NCBI GenBank assembly: GCA_016209225.1
Contig: JACQWO010000086.1
Span: 1-41,308 of the forward strand
Direction of reading: 5' to 3'
From: Desulfobacterales bacterium
GTDB lineage: Bacteria > Desulfobacterota > UBA8473
Length of the DNA: 41,308 bases
Both the position numbers and the translations under genes were made by a program. A model generated the notes under the pieces. That model did not search any database. It saw nothing but the letters and a program-made list of their open reading frames with translations, and was not told where the DNA came from. Below, piece by piece: positions 5,597 to 38,075 of the stretch. Each line of letters opens with the position of its first letter. The stretch's first letter is position 1.

Positions 5597-5643
5597 GTCG
5601 CTTTCCTATTCACGATTCACGATTCACGATTCACGACTTACGA
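5591..5643. repeat. ATTCACG heptamer array with 10-bp inverted ends
   Basis: Four exact copies of ATTCACG (5608-5635) lie between TCGTAAGTCG (5591-5600) and its exact inverse CGACTTACGA (5634-5643). The ribE stop codon is the TAA inside the left arm. It resembles the other intergenic elements in having inverted ends and a 7-bp-period core, but its ends differ (GTAAGTCG rather than GTAACTATTCAGG). Confidence 0.8.
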
Positions 5644-5661
5644 ACTTAAGGGGGGTCTTAA

Positions 5662-6867
5662 ATGGCATTAAGCACAATCAAAGAGGCAATTGAGGATATA
5701 AAAAAAGGAAAGATAATAATCCTTGTTGATGATGAGGACAGGGAAAATGAAGGAGACTTAATGATAGCAGCGGAGAAGATAACCCCCGATGCTGTCAACT
5801 TTATGGCCAGATATGGAAGAGGGCTTATATGCCTGACATTAAATGAAGAAAGGGCGAAGGAATTACATCTGTCTCCTATGGTGACGGATAACACCTCTCA
5901 TTTTAATACTGCATTTACAGTTTCTATTGAAGCAAGGTGCGGGGTTACTACCGGTATTTCTGCCGCAGATAGGGCTATGACAATCTTAACTGCTATAGAC
6001 GAAAAGACAAAACCTCAGGATCTCGCTCGACCCGGTCATATCTTTCCTATTATCGCAAGAAATGGTGGGGTGCTGGTAAGAACAGGCCAGACAGAGGGTT
6101 CGGTTGATTTGGCCAGACTGTCCGGCTTAATACCGGCTGGTGTGATCTGTGAGATAATGAAAGACGATGGAACTATGGCGAGGATGCCGGATTTAGAGAT
6201 ATTTGCTGAAAAACATGGCTTAAAAATTGTTACAATTGCCGATATAATTGAATATCGATTGCAAAACGAGGGTCTTGTTAGGAGAGTTGCAGAAACGCGT
6301 ATACCTACTCTGTATGGTGGGGAATTCAAGGCTGTTGCATATGAAAATGACGTAGATAATCACCAGCATCTTGCGCTGGTTAAAGGAGATATTAACCCAG
6401 AAGACGAGATTTTGGTAAGGGTTCATTCCGAGTGTTTAACAGGTGATGTCTTTGGCTCCGAGAGGTGTGACTGCGGGGAACAACTCCACACTGCTATGAG
6501 GATGATTGAAGAGGAAGGCAAAGGCGTTATTGTTTATATGCATCAGGAGGGAAGGGGTATTGGGCTGATTAATAAGCTTAGAGCCTATGAGCTTCAGGAT
6601 CAGGGTTTGGATACCGTTCAGGCCAATGAACGGCTTGGCTTTAAACCCGATCTTAGAGATTATGGTGTAGGGGCACAGATCCTTCGTGATTTAGGGGTAA
6701 GAAAGATGAGACAGATGACAAATAACCCTAAAAAGATTAAGGGTATAGAGGGGTATGGGCTGATAGTTACAGAGAGGGTGGCCATTGAGACTAAGCCTAA
6801 TGATAATAACATTAAGTATTTGGAAACAAAGAAGAAGAAAATGGGGCATATATTGAATATAAAATAG
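5662..6867 (+). CDS. ribBA: RibBA: DHBP synthase / GTP cyclohydrolase II
   Basis: Fused enzyme supplying both precursors of lumazine: 3,4-dihydroxy-2-butanone 4-phosphate from ribulose 5-phosphate, and the pyrimidine from GTP. The N-terminal RibB half shows [11 protein letters not shown] near residues 23-33 and RPGHIFPI; the C-terminal RibA half shows the zinc site [19 protein letters not shown] and [12 protein letters not shown]. At 401 residues it is standard for the fusion. AAGGGGGGTCTT precedes the ATG. The TAG stop at 6865-6867 merges with the first G of the repeat element that follows. The last 10-15 residues ([12 protein letters not shown]) are variable in the family. Confidence 0.97.
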
Positions 6868-6988
6868 TAACTATTCAGGCACAAAGAGACAAAGGCACAT
6901 AGGCACAAAGCAGAGCAGGGTCGTTTCGTTGTTTTTTCCTACTTTGTGCCTTTGGCGCTCTGTGCCTTTGTGCCTACCTGAATGGTTA
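6867..6988. repeat. Modular TIR element, GGCACA core
   Basis: Left terminal repeat GTAACTATTCAGG at 6867-6879 and right CCTGAATGGTTA at 6977-6988. The core is an imperfect palindrome built from GGCACAAAG and CTTTGTGCC units around a T-rich centre, so the transcript could fold into a long hairpin. It separates ribBA from ribH within the operon. Confidence 0.85.
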
Positions 6989-7001
6989 AGAGGAGGAAAA
7001 T

Positions 7002-7472
7002 ATGTCACGGAAGATAATAGAAGGGAAGATAGATGCTCGTGGTTTGAAGTTTGGAATCGTAGTGAGCAGGTTTAATGATTTTATCAGTGAAAAATTGCTT
7101 GCTGGAGCATTGGACGCATTGATTAGATCTGGTGCAGATGAAAATGACATTGAAATAGTAAAGGTTCCTGGTTCATTTGAGATACCTCTGGCTGCAAAAA
7201 AATTGGCTAAATCTCAAAAGTACAATGCTGTTATATGTTTAGGTGCAGTTATCAGGGGTGCTACCCCTCACTTTGAATATATCAGTGCAGAAGTTACCAA
7301 GGGTATTGCCAACGTTTCTTTAGAGTGTGAAATTCCTATATCTCTTGGTGTAATTACTACAGACAATATAGAGCAGGCAATTGAACGGGCAGGTTCGAAG
7401 TCGGGCAATAAAGGGTGGGACGCAGCCATTTCAGCCATAGAGATGGCAAATATTCTTAAAGAGTTAGGGTAA
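7002..7472 (+). CDS. ribH: 6,7-dimethyl-8-ribityllumazine synthase
   Basis: Condenses the RibD product with dihydroxybutanone phosphate, the penultimate step of riboflavin synthesis, in pentameric or icosahedral particles. 156 residues. Motifs seen: [12 protein letters not shown] at the N-terminus, [15 protein letters not shown], and [17 protein letters not shown] with the catalytic His of the TPHFEY block, then [24 protein letters not shown] precedes the ATG by about 6 bases, just outside the repeat element. It completes the pathway in this operon. Confidence 0.97.
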
Positions 7473-7481
7473 ATAAGATTT

Positions 7482-7809
7482 GTAACTGCTCAGGTTCAAA
7501 GTTCCACGGGGTTCAAGGTTAGAGAGCGATGAAGATTGAACGGTTTGAAGATATTGAGGCTTGGCAACTGGCACGTGAATTGGCTCGAAAAGTGTACCGT
7601 CTAACAAAAAAGCCAGGACTTGCAAAGGACTACGGGTTGAAGAGACAGATACAAGATGCTGCCGGATCATCGATGCATAATATTGCCGAAGGTTTCGATT
7701 CCGAGACGAGTGGGGAGTTTATCCGATTCTTGCGATACGCTAAGCGGTCTTGCACGGAAGTCCGGAGCGAACTCTATGTTGCCTTGGACCTGACAACCTG
7801 AGTAGTTAC
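7482..7809. mobile_element. Modular TIR element carrying an S23 gene
   Basis: Left repeat GTAACTGCTCAGG (7482-7494) and right CCTGAGTAGTTAC (7797-7809) enclose a 328-base element. After the left repeat comes GTTCAAAGTTCC..GGTTCAAGG sequence shared with other copies (14739 onward, 16650 onward), then a four-helix-bundle S23 gene whose stop codon lies inside the right repeat. It splits ribH from nusB. This is the only copy in the window with an open reading frame and may be closest to an autonomous form; no transposase is present. Confidence 0.75.
7529..7801 (+). CDS. Four-helix-bundle S23/IVP-family protein, C-truncated
   Basis: A 90-residue protein of the 23S rRNA intervening-sequence (S23, TIGR02436-like) four-helix-bundle family. 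Motifs: FEDIEAWQLARELARKVYRLT at residues 5-25, DYGLKRQIQDAAGSSMHNIAEGF near 35-57, EFIRFLRYAKRSCTEVRSEL near 65-84. Relatives are usually about 115-125 residues and continue with a fourth helix. Here the frame runs into the element's right terminal repeat at ALDLTT and stops at TGA (7799-7801), so the last helix is missing. The family is small and pentameric in solved structures, occurs in rRNA intervening sequences, and is related to Avd of diversity-generating retroelements; its function is unknown. No strong ribosome site is visible. Confidence 0.85.
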   Translation: MKIERFEDIEAWQLARELARKVYRLTKKPGLAKDYGLKRQIQDAAGSSMHNIAEGFDSETSGEFIRFLRYAKRSCTEVRSELYVALDLTT

Positions 7810-7820
7810 CCGAGGGTTTA

Positions 7821-8234
7821 ATGGGAAACAGGCGTAAATCCAGAGAGTTAGCCCTCCAAATTCTCTATCAGATTGATGCAAGCCGTGATAATGTCAGGGA
7901 TGCTTTAGACCTTTTCTGGCAGAATTTTAAAGGTTTGGGAATGTCCACGGAGTTCACTGAAAAATTGGTAGAGGGTGTCTGTAACCATAAGGAGGAAATT
8001 GACAGGCTTATTGAGGAATCCTCGGAAAATTGGAGACTAAAGAGGATGTCCAAAGTAGACAGGAGTATATTAAGGCTAGCGAGCTTTGAACTCTTATACT
8101 GCAATGATGTTCCAGCCAAGGTTACTCTGAATGAAGCCATAGATTTGGGAAAAAAATTCGGTTCAGAAAAGTCAGGTTCATTTATAAATGGCATATTAGA
8201 TAGAATATCAGCAGGTATTGGTAAAGATTGCTGA
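7821..8234 (+). CDS. nusB: Transcription antitermination factor NusB
   Basis: A 137-residue all-helical RNA-binding protein which, with NusE (S10), binds boxA and promotes antitermination on rRNA operons. The N-terminus NRRKSRELALQILYQID and the C-terminal block KVDRSILRLASFELLYCND, then KVTLNEAIDLGKKFG and SGSFINGILDRI, are diagnostic. Placement right after ribH is widespread in bacteria. Here the S23-bearing repeat element is inserted between the two, and the ribosome site (CGAGGG) begins only 2-3 bases after that element. Confidence 0.96.
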   Translation: MGNRRKSRELALQILYQIDASRDNVRDALDLFWQNFKGLGMSTEFTEKLVEGVCNHKEEIDRLIEESSENWRLKRMSKVDRSILRLASFELLYCNDVPAKVTLNEAIDLGKKFGSEKSGSFINGILDRISAGIGKDC

Positions 8235-16864: not shown

Positions 16865-18535
16865 TTGTTTAAAGAAGAGGTGTTGAAAGAGATTGAGCAA
16901 TTGAATAAGGAATATGAAGCCAATGTCAAAAGAGTATTGAAAAAATTTTCAACAGAAGAGAAAGAGGTTAAAACCCTTTCAGGCCTATCCTTAAAACCGA
17001 TTTACACTCCCCTTGATATTAAAGACAATAACTATGTTGAAGATATTTCTTCCCCTGGTTTGTATCCCTTTACCAGAGGGGTTACTCCAACAGGTTATAG
17101 GACAAAAGAATGGACTATAAGACAGGTAGTAGGATTGGGGACTGCTGAGGAGACCAACGAGAGGCTGAAATATCTGTTTAAACAAGGGCAGACCGGATTC
17201 AGTGTCTGCGGAATGGGCTACCAGCCCTATGAGTCCAGTGATGAACGGAGTTTTGGTATTCTGGGAAAGGGCGGGGTATGGATTGATACCCTGGCAGACA
17301 TTGAAACCCTGTTTGACGGGATAGATATGTCTAAGATAAGTATCAACCAGATTGGCTTTTCCATACCTGTCTTTGCCATGATTCTGGCAGAAGCCGAAAG
17401 GCAGGGTGTAGATTTTAAGAATCTGTCTGGAACTATTCAAAACTGCGTTTTCCCCTTTGGTGAAGGTCCTCAAATGAGGGGGAATGGATCGGTGGATATC
17501 AGTGAGTATTGCACAAAGAATCTGCCGCGATGGAACCATGCCAGTATCTCTGTGAGGAATATCCGGGATGAAGGCATATCTGCCCCTCAGGAAATTGCCT
17601 TTGGAGTTTACATGGGAAGTTTTACTCTGCAATCCGTAATGGCAAGGAACATAGATGTTGATGAAGTTGCCCCCAGGATTTCCTTCTTTCTCAGCTCTGA
17701 GAATGACTTCCTGGAGGAGGTAGCCAAATTCCGCGCAATGCGCAGGTTGTGGGCAAGGACAGTTAAAGAAAGGTTCAATGCCAGGGATCCCAGATCATGG
17801 CTTATGCGATTCCATACCCAGACCACAGCAATTAACCTGACAGCCCAGCAGCCCCTTAATAACGTAATCCGTTCTACCATCCACGCCCTTGCCGCTGTGC
17901 TGGGGGGCGCTCAGTCAATGTCTGTAAACTCCTTTGACGAGGCATTAGCCATACCAACCAGGGCTTCAGCTACCTTATCACTGCGTACCCAACAGATAAT
18001 TGGCCATGAAAGCGGTGTAGCAAACGTTATCGATCCTTTAGGGGGTTCATATTGCATAGAGTCTCTTACCAATCAACTTGAACAAAAGGCAGTAGAGACA
18101 CTGAAAGAATTAGAGGATATGCAGCCTCAGAAGGCCTATCAGTATATTGTTGATCAGGGCAAAGAGGCCGGATATCTCAGGCAAAAGGCCATAGACAATA
18201 ACGAAAGGGCTATGGTGGGTGTTAACAGATTTATTGTGAGAGAGGGTGAAGAGGGAATTGATCTCGGCAATACGGACATTCTGGGATACGATCCTGTCTG
18301 GAGAGACAAACAGATAGAAAGGCTCAATAGAGTTAAGAAGAAAAGAGACCCTGGAAAAACAGAGAAAGCTAAGAGGCTGCTGGAAGATGCGTACAGAAAT
18401 AGAATAAATATAATAGAACCTATGATAGAGGCTGTTAAGGCATATCTGAGCATCGGAGAGATTGTTGAGATAAGAGAAAAGGTTTATGGCCCGGCAAATC
18501 TAGGCCATGTGTGGGGATGTTACTTCGGTATGTAA
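16865..18535 (+). CDS. Divergent acyl-CoA mutase large subunit (set 1)
   Basis: A 556-residue relative of the methylmalonyl-CoA mutase large chain (B12-dependent carbon-skeleton rearrangement). The TIM barrel retains YPFTRGVTPTGYRTKEWTIRQ near 67-87, SGTIQN near 188-193, EVAPRISFF near 267-275, LSLRTQQIIGHESG and PLGGSYCIE. It lacks residues considered essential in the family. GYH (Tyr243-His244 of the Propionibacterium enzyme) reads VRN at 230-232. The substrate-carboxylate loop with Arg207 and YPP is shortened to a Gly-rich stretch at 199-208. The LATHRGYDSD segment is replaced. TTG start with GGAGG 6 bases upstream; its TAA stop begins a repeat element. Its partner is the B12 subunit at 18645. 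An altered substrate or a non-mutase role is likely. Confidence 0.85.
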   Translation: MFKEEVLKEIEQLNKEYEANVKRVLKKFSTEEKEVKTLSGLSLKPIYTPLDIKDNNYVEDISSPGLYPFTRGVTPTGYRTKEWTIRQVVGLGTAEETNERLKYLFKQGQTGFSVCGMGYQPYESSDERSFGILGKGGVWIDTLADIETLFDGIDMSKISINQIGFSIPVFAMILAEAERQGVDFKNLSGTIQNCVFPFGEGPQMRGNGSVDISEYCTKNLPRWNHASISVRNIRDEGISAPQEIAFGVYMGSFTLQSVMARNIDVDEVAPRISFFLSSENDFLEEVAKFRAMRRLWARTVKERFNARDPRSWLMRFHTQTTAINLTAQQPLNNVIRSTIHALAAVLGGAQSMSVNSFDEALAIPTRASATLSLRTQQIIGHESGVANVIDPLGGSYCIESLTNQLEQKAVETLKELEDMQPQKAYQYIVDQGKEAGYLRQKAIDNNERAMVGVNRFIVREGEEGIDLGNTDILGYDPVWRDKQIERLNRVKKKRDPGKTEKAKRLLEDAYRNRINIIEPMIEAVKAYLSIGEIVEIREKVYGPANLGHVWGCYFGM

Positions 18536-18636
18536 CACCTCAGGTAGATAGACTGAAGTTTAGGCTATAGACTATTAGCCTGTAGACTATTAGCCTACTT
18601 CAGCCTTCAGCCTACAGCCTACAGCCTAAACTTGGA
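18532..18636. repeat. Modular TIR element, CAGCCTA core
   Basis: The left end GTAACACCTCAGG (18532-18544) includes the mutase stop codon TAA. The core GTAGATAGACTGAAGTTTAGG then AGACTATTAGCCTGTAGAC and CAGCCTACAGCCT is nearly identical to the element at 19029. The right terminal repeat is absent; AAACTTGGAGGTGG, the ribosome site of the next gene, follows. Confidence 0.8.
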
Positions 18637-26008: not shown

Positions 26009-27670
26009 TTGGGCGGCAAACTGGATATAAAACTTATAGAAGAAGAAAAAATCAACTGGGAGAAAAAATGTGTAAACCCTATTCTTGAAAAAATGGGGGA
26101 GCGAGAGAGTGAATTCTCAACTTCATCAATAAACAATGTAAGCAGGGTTTATACCCCGGAAGATATCAAGAATCTTGAGTATCTGGATGACCTGAATTTT
26201 CCCGGTCAATATCCCTTTACGAGGGGGATAAGGCCTACCGGCTATCGCGGACAACTCTGGACTCATCGTCTTGTTTCAGGGGCAATGGGTGGCAAAGAAT
26301 CGAATAAGATATTAAAGAACCTTCTCGCTCATGGAGAGACAGGGTTAAATCCGGTTTTCGATCCTCCCACTTTGAATGTCAGAGATTCAGACGAAGAGAT
26401 CTCGCAGAGCCAGGTAGGAATCAACGGAACGGCTATCGATACTTTAATAGATATGGAAAATCTGTTTGACGGAATTGACATAGAGAAGGTTTCTGTCAGC
26501 CTTATTGCCCCGCATCCCTTTTTATTTCCTATGTACATTGCGATGGCGGAGAATCGGGGTGTTAAACTCCACAAGTTAAGAGGAACGATCCAAAACGATT
26601 GTATCAACAATTCTCACTCGTGTAATTGGTTTAGGATGGCCCCATTGCCTTTAAGAATGAAAGTACACGGTGATGCTGTGGAGTTCGCTACAAAATATTT
26701 ACCGTCATGGAATCCATTGAGTATTGTTGGCTATCATATTCGAGAAGGAGGCGCCACAGCAGCACAAGAAATCGGGTTTACCCTTGCTGACGGGATTGCC
26801 TATGTAAAAGATTTCATTGAAAGGGGTATGGATGTCGACTCATTTGCCCCAAGGCTGAGTTTCTTTTTTAGTTGTGAGACGGATTTCCTGGAAGAAGTGG
26901 CTAAATTCAGGGCAGCGAGGAGAGTCTGGGCCAAAATAATGAAGAACAGATTTCATGCGAAAGAAGAGAGGAGTCTGCTTCTGCGGTATCACGTTCAGAC
27001 AGCCGGCAATTCCTTGTTGGCCCAGCAACCATTGAACAACATAATAAGAACCACCATACAGGCCCTTGCCGCAGTGTTGGGAGGTTGCAATTCTCTACAT
27101 ACGAATTCCTATGACGAAGCGTTTGCTGCCCCAACTCCCGAAGCTGCTTTGATCGCTCTGCGAACTCAGCAAATCATAGCTCACGAAAGTGGTGTCGCCA
27201 ATACGGTAGATCCCCTGGGGGGGTCTTATTGTATTGAGGCCTTCACTGATGAGTTAGAAAGAAAATCCTTTGAAATTATAGAACAGGTGGATAAAAGAGG
27301 AGGCGCGGTTAAGGCTTGGAAATGGATACAGGACAGCTATCTATCTGCAGCATATGAAAAACAAAAAAGGATAGAAAACAACAAAGAGGTTGTTGTCGGG
27401 CTTAACGCGTTTACCCTTGACGAGCAAGAAGATCAGGAATTAAACCTCTTTGAAATAGATCCAGATTTTGAAGAGAAACAGATTGCGTTTCTATCCGAGA
27501 TTAAAAGAAAGAGAGACCAAAAATCGGTTGAGAGGGCATTGAACGAGATAACCCATATTACTGAAAAGGGCATGAATACCATGAGCCCGATGGTGGAAGC
27601 CTATAAAGCATTGGCAACTCTTGGGGAGGTTCGACGGGCTTGGGAGAGAGGAGCCAATGTAGCGGTTTGA
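26009..27670 (+). CDS. Acyl-CoA mutase large subunit (set 2)
   Basis: A 553-residue methylmalonyl-CoA mutase-type catalytic chain. Preserved: YPFTRGIRPTGYRGQLWTHR near 68-87 (Tyr79 corresponds to Tyr89), RGTIQND near 191-197, GYHIREGGAT at 241-250 with the catalytic Tyr-His, SFAPRLSFF with the substrate Arg, and NSLHTNSYDEAFAAPT. The segment after QND, which in true methylmalonyl-CoA mutase holds Arg207, is replaced (CINNSHSCNWFRM) with Cys at the equivalent place, so a substrate lacking that carboxylate is plausible, as for isobutyryl-, pivalyl- or 2-hydroxyisobutyryl-CoA mutases. TTG start with AAGGAG 7 bases upstream. Its small subunit follows 48 bases later. Confidence 0.9.
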   Translation: MGGKLDIKLIEEEKINWEKKCVNPILEKMGERESEFSTSSINNVSRVYTPEDIKNLEYLDDLNFPGQYPFTRGIRPTGYRGQLWTHRLVSGAMGGKESNKILKNLLAHGETGLNPVFDPPTLNVRDSDEEISQSQVGINGTAIDTLIDMENLFDGIDIEKVSVSLIAPHPFLFPMYIAMAENRGVKLHKLRGTIQNDCINNSHSCNWFRMAPLPLRMKVHGDAVEFATKYLPSWNPLSIVGYHIREGGATAAQEIGFTLADGIAYVKDFIERGMDVDSFAPRLSFFFSCETDFLEEVAKFRAARRVWAKIMKNRFHAKEERSLLLRYHVQTAGNSLLAQQPLNNIIRTTIQALAAVLGGCNSLHTNSYDEAFAAPTPEAALIALRTQQIIAHESGVANTVDPLGGSYCIEAFTDELERKSFEIIEQVDKRGGAVKAWKWIQDSYLSAAYEKQKRIENNKEVVVGLNAFTLDEQEDQELNLFEIDPDFEEKQIAFLSEIKRKRDQKSVERALNEITHITEKGMNTMSPMVEAYKALATLGEVRRAWERGANVAV

Positions 27671-28225: not shown

Positions 28226-28672
28226 ATGAACTCATTGAAAGAAATTGAGGTAAATACCGCGAGGGATGCACTGGCATTGTTAAGCCGTATGATTTATAAA
28301 AAGTATGGTGATGAAGTTCTGCCTCTTATAGGGGAGGTGTGCCGCAGGTTGGGAAGAGCTATTGGAAACCAGATGAGAACAAATTTGGATTCCTTTGACC
28401 TCAAGAGTGTTGGCAACGCCTTTTTCGAAGGCGCCAGACGGCGTAAGAGTTCTGTAACAATCCTCGAAGCCACAGAAAAAAAGTTTAGGGGCAAGAATGA
28501 ACGGTGCGCACTGGGGTTGGCCGGTGCCGGTCGTCCGTTATGTGAGGCCATGATGAATATGGATAAGGGTATATTCGAGGCGGCTACAGGGGAGGAAATT
28601 GAGCTCTCTATCGTGAAGACAGTAGCTGCCGGCGATGAATGCTGTGATGTAATGTTTGCTTTAAAGGGCTAG
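28226..28672 (+). CDS. V4R- or ATC-hydrolase-like small cysteine protein
   Basis: A 148-residue soluble protein. Its C-terminal half has the layout of V4R / L-2-amino-thiazoline-4-carboxylate-hydrolase-like domains: RCALGLAGAGRPLCEAM, then GIFEAATGEEI, then AAGDECCDVMFAL, with Cys at about 94, 107, 139 and 140. In relatives these cysteines bind zinc or a small ligand. GGGGGGAT precedes the ATG. It lies after the set 2 mutase genes, preceded by a 100-base gap. Function unknown; a ligand-sensing or chaperone role in the island is conceivable. Its TAG stop forms the first base of the next repeat. Confidence 0.6.
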   Translation: MNSLKEIEVNTARDALALLSRMIYKKYGDEVLPLIGEVCRRLGRAIGNQMRTNLDSFDLKSVGNAFFEGARRRKSSVTILEATEKKFRGKNERCALGLAGAGRPLCEAMMNMDKGIFEAATGEEIELSIVKTVAAGDECCDVMFALKG

Positions 28673-28814
28673 TAACTATTCAGGTAGGCACAAAGGCACA
28701 GAGCACCAAAGGCACAAATTTTTCTAGCCTATTAGCCTATAGGCTACAGGCTACAGGCTAATAGCCTGTTCTTTGTGCCTATGTGCCTTTGCCACTTTGT
28801 GCCTGAGTAGTTAC
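28672..28814. repeat. Modular TIR element, GGCACA core with nested CAGCCTA hairpin
   Basis: Left GTAACTATTCAGG (28672-28684) and right CCTGAGTAGTTAC (28802-28814). GGCACAAAGGCACAGAGCACC and its inverse flank an inner hairpin, AGCCTATTAGCCTATAGGCT and ACAGGCTAATAGCCTGT (28725-28769). One module is thus inserted inside another. Confidence 0.9.
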
Positions 28815-28839: not shown

Positions 28840-29778
28840 ATGAAAAACAGAATCACCGAGATACTTGGTTCTCAATATCCCATTATCTTAGGGGCAATGC
28901 GTTTTATTACCCTTGCGAAAATGGCGGCAGCCATGTCCAACGCAGGGGGCTTTGGTTTAATTGCTGCCTCAGGGATGGAGGCAGAGCCTTTGAGAAAACA
29001 GATCAGGAATGCCCGTGAATTGACGGACAACCCCCTCGGTATAAATATCCCTGTCTACAGACCCAATGCCTTTGAGGCCCTGGAGATAGCTATTGAAGAA
29101 GGGATAAAGACGATCACTACCTCGGCCGGTGATGCAGGTAAACTCATAAAGAGGATTAAAGAGGCAGGAATTAAGGTGTTACACATGGCCCCTACAGTAG
29201 AGATGGCGAAGAAGGCAGAGGATGCAGGGGTAGATGCCGTTATTGCCGTAGGGACAGAGGCAGGCGGCCATGTGGGCAGAGATGAAGTGAGCACACTGAC
29301 ACTCATTCCCCAGGTAGTAGACGCGGTCAAGATACCGGTGGTTGCAGCAGGTGGTATAGGAGATGCACGGGGTTGGGTGGCGGTGCATGCCCTTGGCGCT
29401 GAGGGGATACAGATGGGCACCCGTTTCCTTGCCACGGAGGAGTGCCCTGTCCCTGAGGTATATAAACAGGCAATTCTAGCTGCCAGGGACAATAGTACAA
29501 TGATTGCGGCTAGAAAGGGTTTTCCTCTCAGAGCATTGAAGAATAAGGCTGTTATGGCGATTCGTGAAATGGAGGAAAAAGGCGCCGGCCAGGAGGAAAT
29601 CAATGCCTTCGTGGACAAACTGGGCAGTAAGCATAAAAACGATCCGGATTATATGCTCATGCCTGCGGGGCAGGTTGCAGGATTGACAAAGGAGATTACC
29701 ACTATCGAGGAACTTATTAAACGGATGGTTGAAGGGGCCAATAGGCTGTCTTTGGAGCTGGTTGGAGACTTTGAGTAG
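28840..29778 (+). CDS. Nitronate monooxygenase / FabK-type flavoprotein
   Basis: A 312-residue TIM-barrel FMN enzyme of the 2-nitropropane dioxygenase family, which includes nitronate monooxygenases, enoyl-ACP reductase FabK and unassigned oxidoreductases. Motifs: SQYPIILGAMRFIT, AGGFGLIAASGM, VGTEAGGHVGRDEVST near 146-161 (flavin/catalytic His region) and VVAAGGIGDARGWVAVHALGAEGIQMGTRFL near 168-198. In an anaerobic CoA-ester island a reductase-like role on an enoyl thioester is more sensible than oxygen-dependent nitronate oxidation, but this is inference. AAAAGGAGG precedes the ATG, just after a repeat element. Confidence 0.88.
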   Translation: MKNRITEILGSQYPIILGAMRFITLAKMAAAMSNAGGFGLIAASGMEAEPLRKQIRNARELTDNPLGINIPVYRPNAFEALEIAIEEGIKTITTSAGDAGKLIKRIKEAGIKVLHMAPTVEMAKKAEDAGVDAVIAVGTEAGGHVGRDEVSTLTLIPQVVDAVKIPVVAAGGIGDARGWVAVHALGAEGIQMGTRFLATEECPVPEVYKQAILAARDNSTMIAARKGFPLRALKNKAVMAIREMEEKGAGQEEINAFVDKLGSKHKNDPDYMLMPAGQVAGLTKEITTIEELIKRMVEGANRLSLELVGDFE

Positions 29779-29780
29779 GA

Positions 29781-29916
29781 GTGACTAATCAGGTAGGCAC
29801 AGAGACACAGAGCACCAAAGGCACAGATTTTTCTAGCCTATAGGCTACAGGCTACAGGCTATTAGCCTGTTCTTTGTGCCTATGTGCCTTTGCCACTTTG
29901 TGCCTGAGTAAGTTAC
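29781..29916. repeat. Modular TIR element, GGCACA core with nested hairpin
   Basis: Left GTGACTAATCAGG (29781-29793) and right CCTGAGTAAGTTAC (29903-29916), both slightly changed. The core closely matches the element at 28672, including the nested AGCCTATAGGCTACAGG hairpin (29833-29870), so the two are recent copies. Confidence 0.85.
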
Positions 29917-29938: not shown

Positions 29939-30730
29939 ATGGAATGGGAATTCGTTTTATTTGAGAAAGAGGATGGTATCGGCACGATTACCTTAAATCG
30001 GCCTGAAAAATACAATGCCCTGGGCGGTAATATGCGACAGGAGATATTGGCTGCCGTTGAATTAGCCTGTTCTGATAGTGATGTTCGTGTGATAGTGATC
30101 ACAGGGGCAGGAAAGGCGTTTTGCGTAGGGGGCGATATAGATGAATTTGTTTCCGGAACTACAAAGGCCATTTCAAATACTGCCACCAGTGAGCGACCCA
30201 CCATGAGCAAGATCGTCCTCTTAATCAATTCTGTTGAAAAGCCTGTGATTGCAGCTGTAAATGGGGTGGCAGCGGGCGGTGGGTGCAACCTTGCTCTCTC
30301 CTGCGATATAAGGATAGCCAGTGACAGGGCAAGGTTTTCTCAGGCATTTGTGAAACGAGGGGTTCATCCTGATTGGGGGGGTATATGGTTCTTGCCGAGG
30401 CTGGTTGGCTATGCCAAGGCGGCAGAATTGATCTTTACTGGGGATATAATAGATGCTGAAGAAGCCTTGCGAATCGGTATGGTCAATAAAGTGGTGCCCA
30501 ACGATAATCTACCTCACGCAACAAAAGAACTGGCCCGGAAAATGGCAAAGAATGCCCCGATACCAATAGCCCTGGCAAAGAGAGGTCTTCAGAATTTTTA
30601 TAAGATGGATCTGGCTGAGGCAGTGGATTACGAAGTGATGACCATTGGGGTATGCTGGAATACTGAGGATCGAGTTGAGGGCATGAAGTCGTTTCTGGAG
30701 AAACGTGAGCCAATTTTTAAAGGGAGATAG
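29939..30730 (+). CDS. Enoyl-CoA isomerase-type crotonase (PaaG-like)
   Basis: A 263-residue crotonase. Neither hydratase Glu is conserved: the first is Asn117 (GGGCNLAL) and the second is Phe137. Instead VKRGVHPDWGGIWFLPRLVG (138-157) has the Asp (145) characteristic of PaaG-type and dienoyl-CoA isomerases. The oxyanion-hole Gly of FCVGGDIDEF is present. It probably isomerises or otherwise deprotonates an acyl-CoA rather than hydrating it. GGGGGTGAG precedes the ATG. It is separated by 16 bases from the CoA-transferase gene. Confidence 0.85.
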   Translation: MEWEFVLFEKEDGIGTITLNRPEKYNALGGNMRQEILAAVELACSDSDVRVIVITGAGKAFCVGGDIDEFVSGTTKAISNTATSERPTMSKIVLLINSVEKPVIAAVNGVAAGGGCNLALSCDIRIASDRARFSQAFVKRGVHPDWGGIWFLPRLVGYAKAAELIFTGDIIDAEEALRIGMVNKVVPNDNLPHATKELARKMAKNAPIPIALAKRGLQNFYKMDLAEAVDYEVMTIGVCWNTEDRVEGMKSFLEKREPIFKGR

Positions 30731-30746: not shown

Positions 30747-31967
30747 ATGGCAATTAGAGGACCACTCACCGGCATTAGAATCCTGGACATATCACATGCC
30801 CATGCAGGGCCCTATGGGTCTCAGCTTCTGGGTGACCTGGGGGCAGAGGTATTAAAGATAGAGCCTCCAGGCAGGGGAGATATTGTAAGGGGACTTAAGC
30901 AGCCCGGTCTGAGTGGTGAGGGCTATTATACCCTGGCTCTCAATCGAAACAAGAAGAGCGTTACGCTGGATATGTATACTGAATCCGGCAAAGAGGTATT
31001 CTATGACCTGGTCAAAATATCTGATGTAGTGTTTGACAATTTTAGAGCCGGTGTCATTGAAAGATTGGGAGTTGATTTTGAAACCTTGAAAGATATCAAC
31101 TCAAAAATTATCTCATGTTCTATTACGGGATATGGTCCATCCGGGCCATATAAGGATAAACCCGCTATTGATGATATGGTTCAAGGGATTGCAGGCTCAT
31201 TAAGCCTTGCAGGGGAACCTGATAGCGGTCCCCTCCGTCCTGGTATTGCAATTGCGGATCTTTCAGGGGGTTTTTTTGGTGCTATGGGTGTGGTTGTAGC
31301 CCTCTACGAAAGGCAGAAGACAGACAAGGGTGTAAGGGTGGAGGTGAATCTTTTAGAATCTACTATGTCGCTCATGTCCACCCACTTTCAGATGTACTTT
31401 CTTTCCGGCAAGCCACCGAAACCTCAAGGCAAGAGGCACCCTGCTGCTCCTATAGGGGTGTTTCAGACCCGGAATGGACATGTAACTTTGGGGCTCTCAT
31501 GGCCGGATATTGCCCATGTGATAGGTAGAAGCTGGCTTTTAAACGATCCAAGGTTTGATACAATGGAAAAAAGACTGAAGTCTAAGAATGAGCTGGAAAG
31601 TATTATGGAAGGTGCCCTCATGGAGAAGGACACGGAAGAATGGTTGGAACTGTTTAAAGAGCATGATATAATTGGCGGACCGATAAACACGCTGGACAAG
31701 GTAGAGAAAGACCCCCAGGTGATTTATAATCAGACCGTTATCAACATGGATCATCCGATCTGCGGGCCGATCAGGGCTATTGCAACTCCTATACGCATCA
31801 GGGATGGAATGGATGGCACCCACGAGCCGCCGCCAACCCTTGGTCAACATACTGAAGAGGTATTGAAAAGGCTACTTGGATACTCCGATGAAAAGATAAG
31901 GTCTATCCAAAAAGAAGCAGAGGAGCATGCTAAAGAATTGGCAAAACATGTAAAGGAGAAGATATAA
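30747..31967 (+). CDS. Class III (CaiB/BaiF) CoA-transferase
   Basis: A 406-residue family III CoA-transferase, forming intertwined dimers and moving CoA between carboxylic acids. N-terminal block GIRILDISHAHAGPYGSQLLGDLGAEVLKIEPPGRGD; catalytic Asp in GIAIADLSGGFF near 167-178; C-terminal HDIIGGPINTLDKVEKDPQV and PPPTLGQHTEEVL. Members include carnitine, oxalate, benzylsuccinate and mesaconyl-CoA transferases, so the substrate is open. GAGGAGGAGGAAG precedes the ATG. With the acyl-CoA ligase upstream, the island has two routes to CoA esters. Confidence 0.93.
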   Translation: MAIRGPLTGIRILDISHAHAGPYGSQLLGDLGAEVLKIEPPGRGDIVRGLKQPGLSGEGYYTLALNRNKKSVTLDMYTESGKEVFYDLVKISDVVFDNFRAGVIERLGVDFETLKDINSKIISCSITGYGPSGPYKDKPAIDDMVQGIAGSLSLAGEPDSGPLRPGIAIADLSGGFFGAMGVVVALYERQKTDKGVRVEVNLLESTMSLMSTHFQMYFLSGKPPKPQGKRHPAAPIGVFQTRNGHVTLGLSWPDIAHVIGRSWLLNDPRFDTMEKRLKSKNELESIMEGALMEKDTEEWLELFKEHDIIGGPINTLDKVEKDPQVIYNQTVINMDHPICGPIRAIATPIRIRDGMDGTHEPPPTLGQHTEEVLKRLLGYSDEKIRSIQKEAEEHAKELAKHVKEKI

Positions 31968-31978
31968 GCTCTTTAGCA

Positions 31979-32068
31979 GTAACTATTCAGGTTGTCAGGT
32001 TCACAGTTCACGGTTGGTTGTTCTAACCTTGAACCGTGAACCCTGGAACTTTGAACCTGAGTAGTTAC
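31979..32068. repeat. Modular TIR element, GTTCACGG core
   Basis: A 90-base copy with perfect ends GTAACTATTCAGG (31979-31991) and CCTGAGTAGTTAC (32056-32068). Core TTGTCAGGTTCACAGTTCACGG and the inverse CCGTGAACCC, as in the 22795 copy. Confidence 0.9.
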
Positions 32069-32101
32069 CTTTAGCAATGGATAAAAAGAGGAATATCATA
32101 G

Positions 32102-34033
32102 ATGAACTGGAAACAGACAGCATCTTTGGAGAATGATTATATCTTTCGGTACAGGATACACGAAGCCAATAATAAAGAAGACAGCAAGTGTAATTCAAGG
32201 CTGGATTTAGTAAAGAAACAACTGCAAAATATCCTCGATATAGTAATTCCTTGTAGTGGAGGTTCAGAAGTCAGAATTGACGGGTTCAAGCTCATGAACG
32301 ATAGAAGTCTCATACACGGGTTATATGATCAAGACAATGAAAGCGCTGCCTCATCGGGCAGGAAGATACTGGAAAGTCCTTTGGTTAGGGAAGCTATGCA
32401 GGGATCTGGCGGAGGAGAGGGGAACGGTCAAGGAAGCAGTTTCCAATCCATAAAAAATGCTGCCCTTTATGAACCGACTGTAGAGTATATTCAACGACTA
32501 CTACAGAGTTTGTTGGATTTGGTAGACCTGGAAAGTGATGGTAAGATAGTAAAGGTCGATGCCTTCAGGCTTAAAGACTTGTCCCAATGGGTTGAAGAGT
32601 CTTCCTGTGATCCCGCTGATATGTTGGGATATCTGGCAACAAGATGCAACTGCAACTGTGTTTTTTGTTATAACAAAGGATGCCCCCCATCTCTGGCACT
32701 TACGAACCCTTCTAAGCCTCCTGACGAAGAGTTCAAAGAGGTACAGACCCGCCTGAAATACTTTTATCCTGAAAAAAAGAAGAACTTATTCACAAGTCTG
32801 GGAAGCAGCTTTGAGGCATTCATTCATCCCCATTTCAGAGAGGTACTACAGGAAGTTCGGAAGAAGAGCGATAAACTTATCAGGATAACTACAAATGGTT
32901 CGACTTTGACAGAGGAGATGATTGATTACCTTTTGGGGTTTAATCCATTGCACCTGGATGTTGCCCTGCATAGTTCTTCAACTCATAGGAGGCAGAGGTT
33001 AATGCATGACAAAACCCCGGAGATCGCTATCAAATCTCTGCCTTTACTCAGGAAAGCCGGTATTCCTTACAACATAGTCATTGTGCCGTGGCCTGACGGA
33101 TCTCCGGAGGAGATGCTGGATGACATGGAGAGAACGATTGACTATGCTGATGAAAATGACGCCCATCTCGCAGAAATCAGCTTACCGGGGTACTCTAAGT
33201 ACTTTTCAGAAGATGAGTTGTTCGACCATGATTCCATATGGGATACGATTGCCATGAAGGTAAGGGATATAAGGTATAAATATCAGGTTCCCATAATAAT
33301 CAGGCCTGCTATCTATGAAGAGGGACTGTTTTGTAATCAAAAGAACTTGCCGGAAGTTATCGGAATAGTGAAAGGCTCTCCTGGGTCTAACAGTAGTTTG
33401 CAACCAGGCGATATATTGACGAAGATAGGCAGTAATGTGATCCACAATAGACCACAGGCCAGAACCCTCCTCTCCATTTTACAAAAGAATGAGATGGAAT
33501 CTGTGTCAATAGAGGTCTTGAGGAAGGGTCGCACATTGGATCTCTTACTCAATTTAAACAAGACTTCATACCCATATTCGAGGGATATCGACACCCATCT
33601 TGGGATAATATTCATGGGCACAGGTCTTCGGGGAGGTTACCTGGAGTCATTACAAGACCTTATCGAAAAGAAAGGGGCGAAAAACATCCTATTCCTTACG
33701 TCAATCCTTATGAAACCATTGCTGGAAAAGGTCATGCTGGAATCCCCTTTCTTTGGAGGAAGGGACGTTTATGTCAAGATTGCTGTTCCTCCAAACCGGT
33801 TTTTTGGAGGAAATATTTGTATGGGGGATTTATTAGTAGTCCAGGATTATATTGACTATATAAAAGATTATATTGAATCAACGGATGTAAAACCGGATTT
33901 GGTGGTAATCCCATCTTCACCCTTCAATCTAAGTGGGTGGGGAAGGGACCTGACGGGAAGGGTATATATGGATATAGAGAGAGAAACCGAGGTACCGGTG
34001 GAGATTTTTGAATGTCAGACTATCTATGATTAA
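32102..34033 (+). CDS. Radical SAM protein with PDZ and DUF512-like domains
   Basis: A 643-residue cytosolic protein. Residues 36-66 and 131-161 look like two copies of one unit (LQNILDIV..GGSEVRIDGFKLMND and LQSLLDLV..DGKIVKVDAFRLKDL). The radical SAM barrel follows, with CX3CX2C at Cys182-186-189 (RCNCNCVFCYNKG) and an extra Cys184. Next comes a PDZ-like segment near 418-485 (GSPGSNSSLQPGDILTKIG) and a C-terminal DUF512-like part (NRFFGGNICMGDLL near 572-585, PDLVVIPSSPFN). In COG1625 relatives the PDZ precedes the radical SAM domain; here it follows. It lies between the CoA-transferase and the set 3 B12 subunit. Its reaction is unknown; maturation of, or chemistry linked to, the mutases is inferred from position only. 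Confidence 0.75.
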   Translation: MNWKQTASLENDYIFRYRIHEANNKEDSKCNSRLDLVKKQLQNILDIVIPCSGGSEVRIDGFKLMNDRSLIHGLYDQDNESAASSGRKILESPLVREAMQGSGGGEGNGQGSSFQSIKNAALYEPTVEYIQRLLQSLLDLVDLESDGKIVKVDAFRLKDLSQWVEESSCDPADMLGYLATRCNCNCVFCYNKGCPPSLALTNPSKPPDEEFKEVQTRLKYFYPEKKKNLFTSLGSSFEAFIHPHFREVLQEVRKKSDKLIRITTNGSTLTEEMIDYLLGFNPLHLDVALHSSSTHRRQRLMHDKTPEIAIKSLPLLRKAGIPYNIVIVPWPDGSPEEMLDDMERTIDYADENDAHLAEISLPGYSKYFSEDELFDHDSIWDTIAMKVRDIRYKYQVPIIIRPAIYEEGLFCNQKNLPEVIGIVKGSPGSNSSLQPGDILTKIGSNVIHNRPQARTLLSILQKNEMESVSIEVLRKGRTLDLLLNLNKTSYPYSRDIDTHLGIIFMGTGLRGGYLESLQDLIEKKGAKNILFLTSILMKPLLEKVMLESPFFGGRDVYVKIAVPPNRFFGGNICMGDLLVVQDYIDYIKDYIESTDVKPDLVVIPSSPFNLSGWGRDLTGRVYMDIERETEVPVEIFECQTIYD

Positions 34034-34122: not shown

Positions 34123-34530
34123 ATGGAAAAAGAAAGAAAGATAAAGGTATTAATAGCAAAGCCCGGGCTTGACGGACATGATAGAGGCGCAAAGGTTCTC
34201 TCCTTCGGGCTGAGAGACCAGGGCATGGAAGTGATCTATACAGGAAGGAGACAATCAGTCCAACAGATTGTAAACTCAGCACTGCAAGAGGATGTGGATG
34301 TTGTGGGCCTTAGCATCCTCTCCGGAGCCCATCTGACATTTTTCCCCAAGGTTGTGGATCTTTTAAGGGAAAATGGCGCTGAAGATATGTTGGTTATAGG
34401 TGGTGGGATTATACCTGAAAATCATATCCCTATACTTAAGGAGAAGGGGGTTACGGAAATTTTTGGTCCTGGTACTATGATAAAGGATATAGGGGACTTC
34501 ATTAGGAAAAACGTACGTAAAATAGCCTGA
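34123..34530 (+). CDS. B12-binding mutase small subunit (set 3)
   Basis: A 135-residue canonical cobalamin-binding domain: [18 protein letters not shown] with DxHxxG near 19-24, [13 protein letters not shown] with Sx[15 protein letters not shown] and IFGPGTMI. It is the closest of the three small subunits to the classical methylmalonyl-CoA mutase domain. It precedes two large-subunit genes, so it is likely to serve both. CTGAGGAGGTG lies before the ATG. Confidence 0.95.
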
Positions 34531-34578: not shown

Positions 34579-36315
34579 ATGGATAATAAAGATAAATTGG
34601 CTGAGATAAAAGAGAAGAAGAAGGAATGGGAGGAGAAGGTGTTGTTGCCTGCGGCCAAGAGGTTTGGGATAGAGAAAAAGCCGACAGAATTTCATACGCC
34701 TTTAGATATAGCGGATTTTGACTTTGTGCGGGATGTTGGATTCCCTGGTCAGTACCCATTCACGACAGCAACCTATCCTGTAAGCCTTGTTCCCAGCATA
34801 GAGAGGGGTGCAAAGCCAGGAGGATTGAGAAGAGCAGGGACATATTCCGGGTATGGAACCCCGGAAGATACCAGGGACTACTATAAGCAGATGGCGAAAT
34901 TGAGCTGGACGGGAGGCCCAAACTTAGCACTCGACCTTCCCACTCAATGCGGTTATGATTCAGACAATGAGATGGTTGAAGGAGAGATAGGTAAGGTGGG
35001 TGTGGCAATAGATACCCTGAGGGATTTTGAGGTCATCTTTGAGGCGTTTACAGGCGATCAGGATGTCGACAGGATTGCCACAAACATCACTATCAATGCC
35101 GCTGCAAATATCCTGGTTGCCATGTACATAGCCCTTGCTGAAAAGAGGGGTATACCTATGGCAAAACTGAGGTGTACCCCCCAGAATGACATATTAAAAG
35201 AGTTTGTTTCCCGCGGCACCTACATATTTCCTCCGAGACCTTCTATGCGGATGTTTCGAGACAGCGTGGTCTTCTTTACAGAGAACCTCCCCGGAATAAA
35301 TATAACGAGTATTGGCGGGTATCATATCCGTGAAGGGGGGTCTACAAGAGAGCAGGAGCTGGCCTTCAGTATGGCCATAGGGATTGCCTATTTGCAGGAG
35401 GGTGTAAATGCAGGGGTTGATATTGATGCCTTTACCCCCAAGTTTACCTTCAACGCGTTTGGGGGAAGTATGCAGTTTTTCAAGGAGATCGCCTTTCAAA
35501 GGGCAGCTCGCCGGATGTGGGCAAAGATTCTTAAGGAGAGGTTTGGTGCGAAGAAAAAGGACAGTATGAGGATCAGATGTCCTATCACCGCCCATGTCGG
35601 TTGCAGCAGCACTACCAAACAACGGGCGTTGAACAACCTTTCCCGTTCTGTAGTGGGTGCCATTGCAGGTGTTCTTTCAGGAGGGCCACCTTATGCCTTC
35701 CCGCCGTATGATGAACCGTTGGGGTTGGGTTGGAGCCTGGAGGCAAGACAGCTTGCCGAGGATGCAACAAGGATTATCATGTATGAGACAGGGATGTGCG
35801 ATGTTATAGACCCCCTTGCCGGGTCTTACTATGTGGAGTCGTTGACCAACGAGATAGAGGACGCTGCATGGAAGGAAATAGAAAAGGTCGAGAGTATGGG
35901 TGGTGCGGTTACTGCCATAGAGAACGGGTATATGCAGCGTGAGGTTGCAAAGAGTGCTGCCGAACGTCAGGCCAGGATAGAGAGAAGAGAAGAGCTTGTT
36001 GTTGGGGTTAATTGTTTCACAGAGGAATATGAGTTGGATGTAACCACCAGCAAGATCATTGAGCATCCGTATTCTGAAGAGAAAAGGTATGATGCCGAGA
36101 AACAGCAGAAGGCTAACCTTGCTGAAGTCAAGCGTACAAGGAACAACAGGGAGGTAACGAGGCTTCTTGGAGAATTGGAGAGTGCTGCGAAAAAGGAAGA
36201 TAAGAACCTGATGCCCCTTTTTATTGATCTGGCAAGGGAATATGCGACTCTTCAAGAACAGTGCGATGTTTTGAGAGGTGTGTTTGGTGAATGGCAGTTG
36301 GATACGTTTGTCTAA
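34579..36315 (+). CDS. Acyl-CoA mutase large subunit (set 3, copy A)
   Basis: A 578-residue mutase-type catalytic chain of a divergent subclade. PTQCGYDSDNEMVEG near 121-135, QNDILKEFVSRGTYIFPPRPSMR near 202-224 (Arg212, the equivalent of substrate-binding Arg207) and GGYHIREGG at 246-254 (Tyr248-His249) are kept. The YPFTRG/WTIRQ region is replaced by YPFTTATYPVSL..GAKPGGLRRAGTYSG, and the substrate Arg of APR is Lys (TPKF, 286-289). The barrel's RTHCQTSGWSLT stretch is RCPITAHVGCSS. AAGGAGGT precedes the ATG. Copy B follows 23 bases later with near-identical ends. Confidence 0.9.
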   Translation: MDNKDKLAEIKEKKKEWEEKVLLPAAKRFGIEKKPTEFHTPLDIADFDFVRDVGFPGQYPFTTATYPVSLVPSIERGAKPGGLRRAGTYSGYGTPEDTRDYYKQMAKLSWTGGPNLALDLPTQCGYDSDNEMVEGEIGKVGVAIDTLRDFEVIFEAFTGDQDVDRIATNITINAAANILVAMYIALAEKRGIPMAKLRCTPQNDILKEFVSRGTYIFPPRPSMRMFRDSVVFFTENLPGINITSIGGYHIREGGSTREQELAFSMAIGIAYLQEGVNAGVDIDAFTPKFTFNAFGGSMQFFKEIAFQRAARRMWAKILKERFGAKKKDSMRIRCPITAHVGCSSTTKQRALNNLSRSVVGAIAGVLSGGPPYAFPPYDEPLGLGWSLEARQLAEDATRIIMYETGMCDVIDPLAGSYYVESLTNEIEDAAWKEIEKVESMGGAVTAIENGYMQREVAKSAAERQARIERREELVVGVNCFTEEYELDVTTSKIIEHPYSEEKRYDAEKQQKANLAEVKRTRNNREVTRLLGELESAAKKEDKNLMPLFIDLAREYATLQEQCDVLRGVFGEWQLDTFV

Positions 36316-36338: not shown

Positions 36339-38075
36339 ATGGATAATAAAGATAAATTGGCTGAGATAAAAGAGAAGAAGAAAGAATGGAATGAGAAGGT
36401 GTTGTTGCCTGCGGCCAAGAGGTTTGGGATAGAGAAAAGGCCGACAAAATTCCATACGCCTTTAGATATAGCGGATTTTGACTTTGAACGGGATGTTGGT
36501 TTCCCAGGGCAATATCCATTTACCCCATCATCTTATCCAATAAGTCTTGTGCCTCGGATTGAAAAGGGTGCAAAGCCAGGAGGATTGAGAAGGGCAGGAA
36601 CATATTCCGGATATGGGACCCCGGAAAACACCAGGGATTACTACAAATTAATGGCGAAATTAAGGTATACGGGCGGTCCAAACCTGGCGTTAGATCTTCC
36701 TACCCAGTGTGGCTATGATTCGGACAATGAGATGGTTGAAGGAGGGATAGGTAAGGTGGGTGTGGCAGTAGACACCTTCAGGGATGTTGAGGTTATATTT
36801 GAGGCGTTTACAGGTGATCAGGATCTGGACAAGATCGCTACAAACATGACGATAAATGCCCCTGCAAATATCCTGGTTGCAATGTATATTGTTCTTGCAG
36901 AAAAGAGGGGTATATCACTGGCAAAGTTGAAGGGCACCCCACAGAATGACATACTAAAGGAGTTCATTTCCCGTGGCACATACATATTTCCTCCGAAACC
37001 TTCCATGCGGATGTTTCGAGACAGTGTGGTTTTCTTTACAGAGAATCTTCCAGCGTTGAATATTAATGGCTTTGGCGGTGCTCATATCCGTGAGGGAGGG
37101 GCCACAAGAGAGCAGGAACTGGCTTTTACTATGGCTAATGGGATCGCTTATCTGCAGGAAGGTATTAATGCAGGGCTCGATATTGATGCCTTTGCTCCCA
37201 GGTTTTCGTTTGTGGGATTTGGTGGAAGTATGGAGTTTTTCAAAGAGATCGCTTTCCACAGGGCGTCTCGCTGCATGTGGGCTAAAATTACCAAGGAAAG
37301 GTTTGGCGCAAAAAGTCCTGAAAGCATGAGGATCCGAAGCCCATACACAGCCTCTAGCGGTATCAGCGCCACCACCAAACAACGGGCGCTGAACAACCTT
37401 ACCCGCTCAGTCATAGGCGCAGTAGCCGGTGTTCTTTCGGGAGGAGCGCCAATGGCCTTCCCGCCGTACGATGAGCCGCTGGGGTTGGGCTGGAGTTTGG
37501 AAGCAAGGCAGCTTGCCGAGGATGCAACAAGGATTCTTATGTATGAGACAGGGATGTGCGATGTTATAGACCCTCTGGCCGGGTCTTACTATATGGAGTC
37601 ATTGACCAATGAGATAGAGGACGCAGCATGGAAAGAACTGGAGAAAGTCGAAGGAATGGGTGGCTCTGTGGCTGCTATTGAGAATGGGTATATGCAACGC
37701 TCGATTGCAAAGAGTGCTGCCGAACGTCAGTCCAGGATAGAGAAAAGAGAAGATCTTATAGTTGGAGTGAATTGTTTCACAGAGGAATATGAGTTGGATG
37801 TAACCACCAGCAAGATCATTGAGCATCCGTATTCTGAAGATAAGAGGTATGATGCCGAGAAACAGCAGAAGGCTACCCTTGCTGAAGTCAAACGCACAAG
37901 GAACAACAGGGAGGTAACGAGGCTTCTTGGAGAATTGGAAAGCGCTGCGAAAAAGGAAGATAAGAACCTGATGCCCCTTTTTATTGATCTGGCAAGGGAA
38001 TATGCGACCCTTCAAGAACAGTGTGATGTCTTGAGAGGCGTATTTGGTGAGTGGCAGATGGATTCGTTTGTTTAG
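36339..38075 (+). CDS. Acyl-CoA mutase large subunit (set 3, copy B)
   Basis: A 578-residue tandem paralogue of copy A, the same length and nearly identical over the first 50 and last 120 residues but clearly different in the barrel. The catalytic Tyr of GYH is Ala (GGAHIREGG, Ala248-His249), while the substrate Arg is kept (FAPRFSF, Arg288), the reverse of copy A. Arg212 (SRGTYIFPPKPSMR) is present. RSPYTASSGISATTK replaces the corresponding copy A stretch. This fits either a heteromeric enzyme in which one chain is less active, as in Propionibacterium MutA/MutB, or two enzymes with separate substrates. GGGGGAG precedes the ATG. Confidence 0.9.
   Translation: MDNKDKLAEIKEKKKEWNEKVLLPAAKRFGIEKRPTKFHTPLDIADFDFERDVGFPGQYPFTPSSYPISLVPRIEKGAKPGGLRRAGTYSGYGTPENTRDYYKLMAKLRYTGGPNLALDLPTQCGYDSDNEMVEGGIGKVGVAVDTFRDVEVIFEAFTGDQDLDKIATNMTINAPANILVAMYIVLAEKRGISLAKLKGTPQNDILKEFISRGTYIFPPKPSMRMFRDSVVFFTENLPALNINGFGGAHIREGGATREQELAFTMANGIAYLQEGINAGLDIDAFAPRFSFVGFGGSMEFFKEIAFHRASRCMWAKITKERFGAKSPESMRIRSPYTASSGISATTKQRALNNLTRSVIGAVAGVLSGGAPMAFPPYDEPLGLGWSLEARQLAEDATRILMYETGMCDVIDPLAGSYYMESLTNEIEDAAWKELEKVEGMGGSVAAIENGYMQRSIAKSAAERQSRIEKREDLIVGVNCFTEEYELDVTTSKIIEHPYSEDKRYDAEKQQKATLAEVKRTRNNREVTRLLGELESAAKKEDKNLMPLFIDLAREYATLQEQCDVLRGVFGEWQMDSFV

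Follow-up and report, generated by a model that had tools for sequence, protein, structure and literature searches.

The gene at positions 32102-34033 of a Desulfobacterales contig (JACQWO010000086.1; 41,308 nucleotides, analysed whole and hereafter called the window) encodes a radical SAM protein, rSAM, that is found almost only together with one branch of the B12-dependent acyl-CoA mutases. The protein is very probably a B12 enzyme itself, because its predicted fold, its domains and its aligned residues match those of the DUF512/Mmp10 class. The B12 nature of DUF512 is the main point absent from the sequence-only reading of the window, as it could not be known from the sequence alone. Our preferred reading, to which we give a probability of about one in three, is that this B12-dependent enzyme modifies its partner acyl-CoA mutase, most likely by C-methylation, and does so by means of a PDZ domain and a paired, separable recognition unit. 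The features on which the argument draws are collected in Table 1.

Table 1. Features of rSAM, of its gene cluster in the window and of the separate N-terminal-unit proteins encoded beside rSAM genes in other loci
Feature	Position	Strand	Evidence
Radical SAM-PDZ-DUF512 enzyme (rSAM), 643 aa	32102..34033	+	ORF, Pfam, 17-member family alignment A1, AF2 model and Foldseek
N-terminal helix-strand-strand unit, copy 1, residues 29-75	32186..32326	+	Profile, model
N-terminal unit, copy 2, residues 122-167, fused to radical SAM domain	32465..32602	+	Profile, model
Radical SAM domain; CX3CX2C at residues 182/186/189 (32645-32668), Tyr190, GSxxE	32639..33124	+	Pfam, motif table
PDZ domain	33350..33550	+	Pfam; Aquifex RseP PDZ matches; alignment
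DUF512, cobalamin-binding domain	33569..34030	+	Pfam, Foldseek, alignment to pfDUF512; PMC11659888
B12-binding small mutase subunit	34123..34530	+	PF02310, TIGR00640
Acyl-CoA mutase large chain, mutA1	34579..36315	+	PF01642, TIGR00641, alignment, tree
Second mutase large chain, mutA2, tandem copy 86% identical to mutA1	36339..38075	+	Pfam, alignment, tree
Family III CoA transferase, upstream neighbour of rSAM	30747..31967	+	Pfam; recurs near rSAM in other loci
Enoyl-CoA hydratase family protein, same cluster	29939..30730	+	Pfam; also near rSAM in f20 loci
NMO/FabK-like flavoprotein, same cluster	28840..29778	+	Domain matches; recurrence among loci
Separate 83-aa N-terminal-unit protein	L072 5260-5511		Profile match beside rSAM gene
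Separate 83-aa N-terminal-unit protein	L074 10715-10966		Profile match beside rSAM gene
86-aa N-terminal-unit protein, weaker case	L076 7104-7364		Profile match beside rSAM gene

Homologues at 37-93% identity establish rSAM as a real gene, and its differences from the 93% identical orthologue (30/17/66 by codon position) follow the pattern of a conserved gene, as read from the two sequences. The domain order that had been proposed, a duplicated N-terminal unit followed by radical SAM, PDZ and DUF512 domains, is confirmed by the ORF and by Pfam and profile searches, with Pfam placing Radical_SAM at residues 180-341 (1.2e-15), PDZ_2 at 417-483 (1.5e-6) and DUF512 at 516-608 (0.012). The last of these matches is weak and sub-threshold (15.3 bits against a cut-off of 25); DUF512 (PF04459) is matched by 15 of the 17 family members, the best at 7.7e-6, and Radical_SAM and PDZ are present in all 17 aligned relatives. 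C182, C186 and C189 of the motif RCNCNCVFC, which marks a [4Fe-4S]-SAM site, are invariant in this alignment. The additional cysteine within the motif, to which the sequence-only reading had drawn attention, does exist in rSAM (Cys184) and in 13/17 relatives, with Leu taking its place in the remaining four, which rules it out as a family trait. The GSxxE motif of the radical SAM domain contains the invariant E238, and the PDZ domain has an intact peptide-binding loop, with the invariant Gly421 in its hydrophobic-Gly-hydrophobic carboxylate-binding stretch.

The order of domains had also been described as permuted. This stands in comparison with the DUF512 protein of C. sporogenes (csDUF512), in which PDZ occupies residues 1-80 (PMC11659888), whereas in rSAM it is placed after the radical SAM domain and before DUF512. 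Together with the presence of GSxxE in place of the DDD motif of csDUF512 and pfDUF512, this sets rSAM outside the N-terminal-PDZ DUF512 subgroup (csDUF512, COG1625 type; PDZ first, DDD motif). The order is not unique, however, as it is common in Firmicutes proteins of ~450 aa. Within one Firmicutes phylum, 62 of 348 genomes match the rSAM family profile; the short proteins examined, which have ~30% identity to rSAM, share the rSAM-PDZ-DUF512 order, and the two that were run against Pfam pass the DUF512 cut-off. Unlike rSAM, they have no N-terminal units and their neighbours are not mutases. In 10 of 12 loci checked (L077-L080, L083, L084 and L088-L091) they lie downstream of tsaE-tsaB-rimI-tsaD, the t6A tRNA genes, a hint that the function of the short subfamily is related to tRNA or t6A.

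DUF512 is a cobalamin-binding domain (PMC11659888, PMC13331322). Four DUF512 proteins have been found to bind cobalamin, to methylate it with SAM and to cleave SAM, and two structures have been solved; as recovered, pfDUF512 contained 44% and csDUF512 38% adenosylcobalamin, part of which could come from the E. coli expression host, and in pfDUF512 5'-deoxyadenosine is located above the cobalt (PMC11659888). A review groups Mmp10 (the methyl-coenzyme M reductase arginine methylase) with the DUF512 proteins as class 2 and treats their reactions as an open question (PMC13331322). With an AlphaFold (AF2) model of rSAM (pLDDT 71, pTM 0.71) as query, Foldseek returns pfDUF512 (9cg2) first (2.7e-11), csDUF512 (9cg1) second (7e-10) and Mmp10 (7qbs, 7qbu) fourth (7e-7), and the family profile of rSAM matches 9cg2 at 1.8e-7. 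As in csDUF512 and pfDUF512, the radical SAM domain is followed by a C-terminal cobalamin-binding domain, and the lower-axial Leu and the cluster-side residue can be aligned; csDUF512 also has a PDZ domain. Specifically, L577, invariant in the family, aligns with the lower-axial Leu286 of pfDUF512 (a correspondence by alignment, not structure), and Tyr190, directly after the third cluster Cys in 16/17, takes the position of the hydrophobic residue between cluster and cobalamin. Thr/Ser residues (T/S533-S534) are found in all family members, and their match to the dimethylbenzimidazole-tail Thr/Ser of the class is read by position and is less certain. A DUF512-only profile matched nothing in the PDB, so the mapping of this domain rests on single-sequence alignments and the full profile. 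From the CX3CX2C motif, the C-terminal DUF512-type domain, these aligned residues and the modelled fold, we regard it as highly likely that rSAM is a class-2 cobalamin-dependent radical SAM enzyme of the Mmp10/DUF512 type, to which, compared with csDUF512 and pfDUF512, two N-terminal units and a mutase linkage have been added.

The N-terminal duplication is real. Its two copies align with a score of 57, against 20 +/- 3.6 and a maximum of 39 for shuffles, and a profile of the unit finds both in rSAM at ~1e-22. Structure prediction, which the sequence-only reading had called for, gives a helix-strand-strand unit with high local confidence (pLDDT ~90 over the unit). A known fold was rejected, since comparison with the solved folds in the PDB gave nothing below E = 3, and Pfam has no match in the 83-aa form or in the N-terminal part of rSAM. 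Two distant relatives encode copy 1 on its own, as a protein of 83 aa, next to an rSAM that has one fused copy. When 25 genomes were searched with the unit profile, 17 rSAM genomes each gave two matches and no more, G1004 gave a single one, and the seven genomes that have no long-type rSAM gave none. That the unit is found both split and fused suggests that it is a physical partner of rSAM, and by analogy it may be comparable in role, not fold, to the recognition domains of peptide-modifying radical SAM enzymes.

In the window, rSAM is immediately upstream of the B12 subunit and the mutase chains and in the same direction, as first described, with 89 bp separating it from the B12 subunit gene, which is followed after 48 bp by mutA1 and after a further 23 bp by mutA2. 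A RiPP maturase with an adjacent precursor peptide was ruled out, as the gaps in the window leave no room for one and the neighbours of rSAM abut in L030. The NMO and enoyl-CoA hydratase genes are each preceded by an intergenic copy of a long direct repeat (28671-28809 and 29780-29910) whose 77-nt core is 99% identical, and part of this repeat is found again immediately ahead of the rSAM gene (32048-32084); the palindrome of the repeat, ACAGGCTA-N8-TAGCCTGT, has variant forms at 18560 and 19057 of the window.

The link between rSAM and the mutases was followed across 395 genomes of the phylum and smaller samples of two other phyla, most of them fragmented metagenome assemblies, in which related genomes are not independent. 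rSAM is encoded in 19 of the 395 genomes and mutA1 relatives, counted at ~49% identity or more, in 35; by this cut-off the mutA1 subfamily is present in 17 of the 19 rSAM genomes (Fisher p = 2.6e-18, uncorrected for kinship), and the remaining two (G075 and G058) have mutase fragments beside rSAM at contig ends. By profile search, rSAM is absent from the 18 genomes that have only the mutase and likewise from G039; the latter, from the window's own genus, is complete and also has no mutase of the mutA1 type. In a tree of 47 mutases, two clades account for 27 rows, 25 of them from rSAM genomes, and both exceptions come from G164, a genome of 85% completeness; a third clade, of alkylsuccinate type, has 0/12 rows from rSAM genomes. 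Beyond the phylum sample, all six genomes with long rSAM relatives carry mutA1 relatives (49-81%), and the genomes of more distant rSAMs (G858, G897 and G1004) have none.

A mutase or B12 subunit is directly beside rSAM in 13/16 informative loci, the f20 family being left out. Four neighbour orders occur (rSAM-B12-mutase, mutase-rSAM-B12, rSAM-mutase-B12 and rSAM-B12), and through these rearrangements only the mutase and B12-subunit neighbours recur. In L026, the neighbour of rSAM is a CoA transferase, followed by a partial mutase. The Chloroflexi loci L072 and L073 have no mutase near rSAM, and both genomes encode one (63% and 49% identity). In the f20 family, where contigs are short, rSAM is apart from its mutases; on the one long contig (G122), mutA1 is 8 kb from rSAM. 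The proposed association therefore survives a genome-neighbourhood survey, in that homologues are not mostly away from mutases, and it is probable that rSAM serves the adjoining mutase or its pathway. Several genomes have one rSAM alongside two or three mutA1-type mutases. The L025 locus unites rSAM in one run of genes with a MasD-type C-terminus that shows 70% identity over 91 aa, and with two activases, a MoxR-like ATPase, a VWA protein, a B12 subunit and a CoA transferase. Genes for the MoxR-like ATPase, the VWA protein and a 112-aa protein are directly upstream of rSAM in this locus (4994-7906), and genes of this type also occur near other mutA1 clusters.

Both mutA1 and mutA2 have the PF01642 fold, catalytic His and substrate Tyr/Arg of the methylmalonyl-CoA mutase superfamily. 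By alignment, mutA1 keeps the equivalents of Tyr89 and Arg207 of methylmalonyl-CoA mutase, both of which 2-hydroxyisobutyryl-CoA mutase lacks, and its substrate is therefore likely to be a dicarboxylyl-CoA. mutA2 reads GGAHIREGG where mutA1 has GGYHIREGG, with Ala in place of the Tyr that precedes the catalytic His. The window encodes two more large mutase chains (16865-18535 and 26009-27670), which have no Tyr89/Arg207 equivalents and do not match the known residues of methylmalonyl or hydroxyisobutyryl type.

The closest known comparison is the (1-methylalkyl)succinyl-CoA mutase of ass/mas alkane clusters (e.g., of Desulfoglaeba; PMC7180275), to which mutA1 is 55-60% identical; these enzymes likewise keep the Tyr89/Arg207 equivalents and share PrpD and MeaB as neighbours. 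The third clade of our tree belongs to alkane degradation: its loci encode a B12 subunit, mutase, MeaB, PrpD, glycyl-radical activase and a glycyl radical enzyme matching MasD (PDB 9o8u) at 1250 bits, the same gene content as published for Desulfoglaeba (PMC7180275). However, mutA1 falls in clades separate from these mutases and differs from them at 11 near-fixed columns, several around the Tyr89 equivalent, and the mutA1 clades go with rSAM whereas the alkane-type mutases go with the MasD/AssA glycyl radical enzyme. The window's own genome (98.5% complete) was found to have no X-succinate synthase glycyl radical enzyme; mutA1 is thus set apart from (1-methylalkyl)succinyl-CoA mutases, and alkane activation by fumarate addition was rejected for this genome. 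Since the window also encodes TRAP and MFS carriers, we infer that its pathway degrades an imported acid. PrpD (MmgE) is a constant partner of the alkylsuccinate-type mutases and is also seen with rSAM-linked ones (L157, L159, L160, L162 and L164).

The precedent for a radical SAM maturase and its enzyme is provided by Mmp10 and methyl-coenzyme M reductase (PMC8828468). Mmp10 has class and fold in common with rSAM, and each of the two is a radical SAM/B12 enzyme linked to a single catabolic enzyme complex of radical type. Mmp10 has neither the PDZ domain nor the N-terminal units of rSAM, and its protein substrate is proven, whereas that of rSAM is deduced from its partner and domains. A search of the literature library found no radical SAM/mutase pair. 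On this model, rSAM would be a low-turnover maturase of its partner B12 mutase, the PDZ domain and N-terminal units holding a protein substrate, for which the mutase large chain and its B12 subunit are the probable candidates. A first SAM would methylate cob(I)alamin to methylcobalamin, and a second would give rise to a 5'-deoxyadenosyl radical that abstracts hydrogen from a mutase residue; the methyl group would then pass to the same carbon, in the way that Mmp10 methylates an arginine of methyl-coenzyme M reductase. Thus modified, the mutase would perform its ordinary carbon-skeleton rearrangement of a dicarboxylyl-CoA, perhaps one like alkylsuccinyl-CoA.

This role as a maturase is favoured because the mutase or B12 subunit stays the constant partner of rSAM through rearrangement, and it is favoured over that of a pathway enzyme because one rSAM serves several mutase copies. 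A PDZ domain whose peptide-binding loop is intact, joined to paired recognition-like units that are split or fused, speaks for a protein substrate. Known members of the class spend two SAM per methyl transfer, an expense that would be costly for a catabolic step and would suit low turnover. Against it, the alkylsuccinate-type mutases do without rSAM in spite of their similarity to mutA1, L072 and L073 offer no nearby mutase and the f20 rSAM stands apart. Docking of the PDZ domain to the mutase C-terminus is not supported by comparison with rSAM-less mutases: the C-termini are hydrophobic (DTFV, DSFV, DTFI, PPSIF), and the first three resemble ligands of PDZ domains, but those of mutases without rSAM are likewise so (FGEAQPVKL), and DTFI/DTFV ends also occur in G164, where no rSAM was detected. 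We place the chance that rSAM acts by modifying the mutase somewhat below even. Its reactivation of the mutase is a weaker proposal, since other parts of the genome encode MeaB and a PduO-type adenosyltransferase.

A serious rival, which we nonetheless consider rather unlikely, is that rSAM acts on the small-molecule substrate of the pathway and makes or uses the compound that the mutase rearranges, by methyl transfer, epimerisation or rearrangement of a branched dicarboxylate or CoA ester. Most long-family loci are indeed found among genes of carboxylate/acyl-CoA catabolism (CoA transferase III, crotonases, PrpD, NMO/FabK, carboxyltransferase, TRAP or TctC uptake). In the window's own genome a mutase is present and a fumarate-adding alkylsuccinate synthase is not, so the mutase substrate must arise by another route, and the residues of mutA1 around the Tyr89 equivalent depart from those of alkylsuccinate-type mutases. 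However, two SAM per methyl group would be a high price for a high-flux catabolic step, the PDZ domain and N-terminal units suggest a protein partner, and a single f20 rSAM serves mutase paralogues in different transport and CoA-transfer contexts.

It is improbable that rSAM and mutase share a neighbourhood for reasons of pathway only, with rSAM modifying some other protein, an RNA or a protein of the cluster such as the CoA transferase. The two loci and the f20 family without an adjacent mutase, the t6A tRNA genes adjoining the short Firmicutes relatives and the frequency of CoA transferase III as a neighbour would fit such a role, but the presence of rSAM tracks the mutase clade across genomes and not by position alone. 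Least probable is that rSAM makes or repairs adenosylcobalamin, joining a deoxyadenosyl radical to cob(II)alamin in DUF512 and passing the cofactor to the B12 subunit: the persistence of mutase or B12 subunit as neighbour and the adenosylcobalamin and 5'-deoxyadenosine seen in DUF512 proteins (PMC11659888) are in its favour, but it is weakened because the window's own genome, like many rSAM genomes, has a PduO-type adenosyltransferase (C44, 6e-48) and MeaB (C19, 2e-96), MeaB even sharing the rSAM cluster in L041 and L031, and because related mutases function without rSAM. By the same co-occurrence, rSAM is not a replacement for MeaB.

It has recently been recognised that some 6000 DUF512 proteins are cobalamin-dependent radical SAM enzymes; which reactions they perform is the question put by a 2025 review (PMC13331322). 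For this enzyme class of open function, the rSAM subfamily supplies a concrete genetic partner, and hence a testable question. If the mutase is indeed the protein that rSAM methylates, the pair would be the counterpart, in bacterial carboxylate catabolism, of Mmp10 and methyl-coenzyme M reductase, and would be one of the few instances in which a B12 enzyme serves another.
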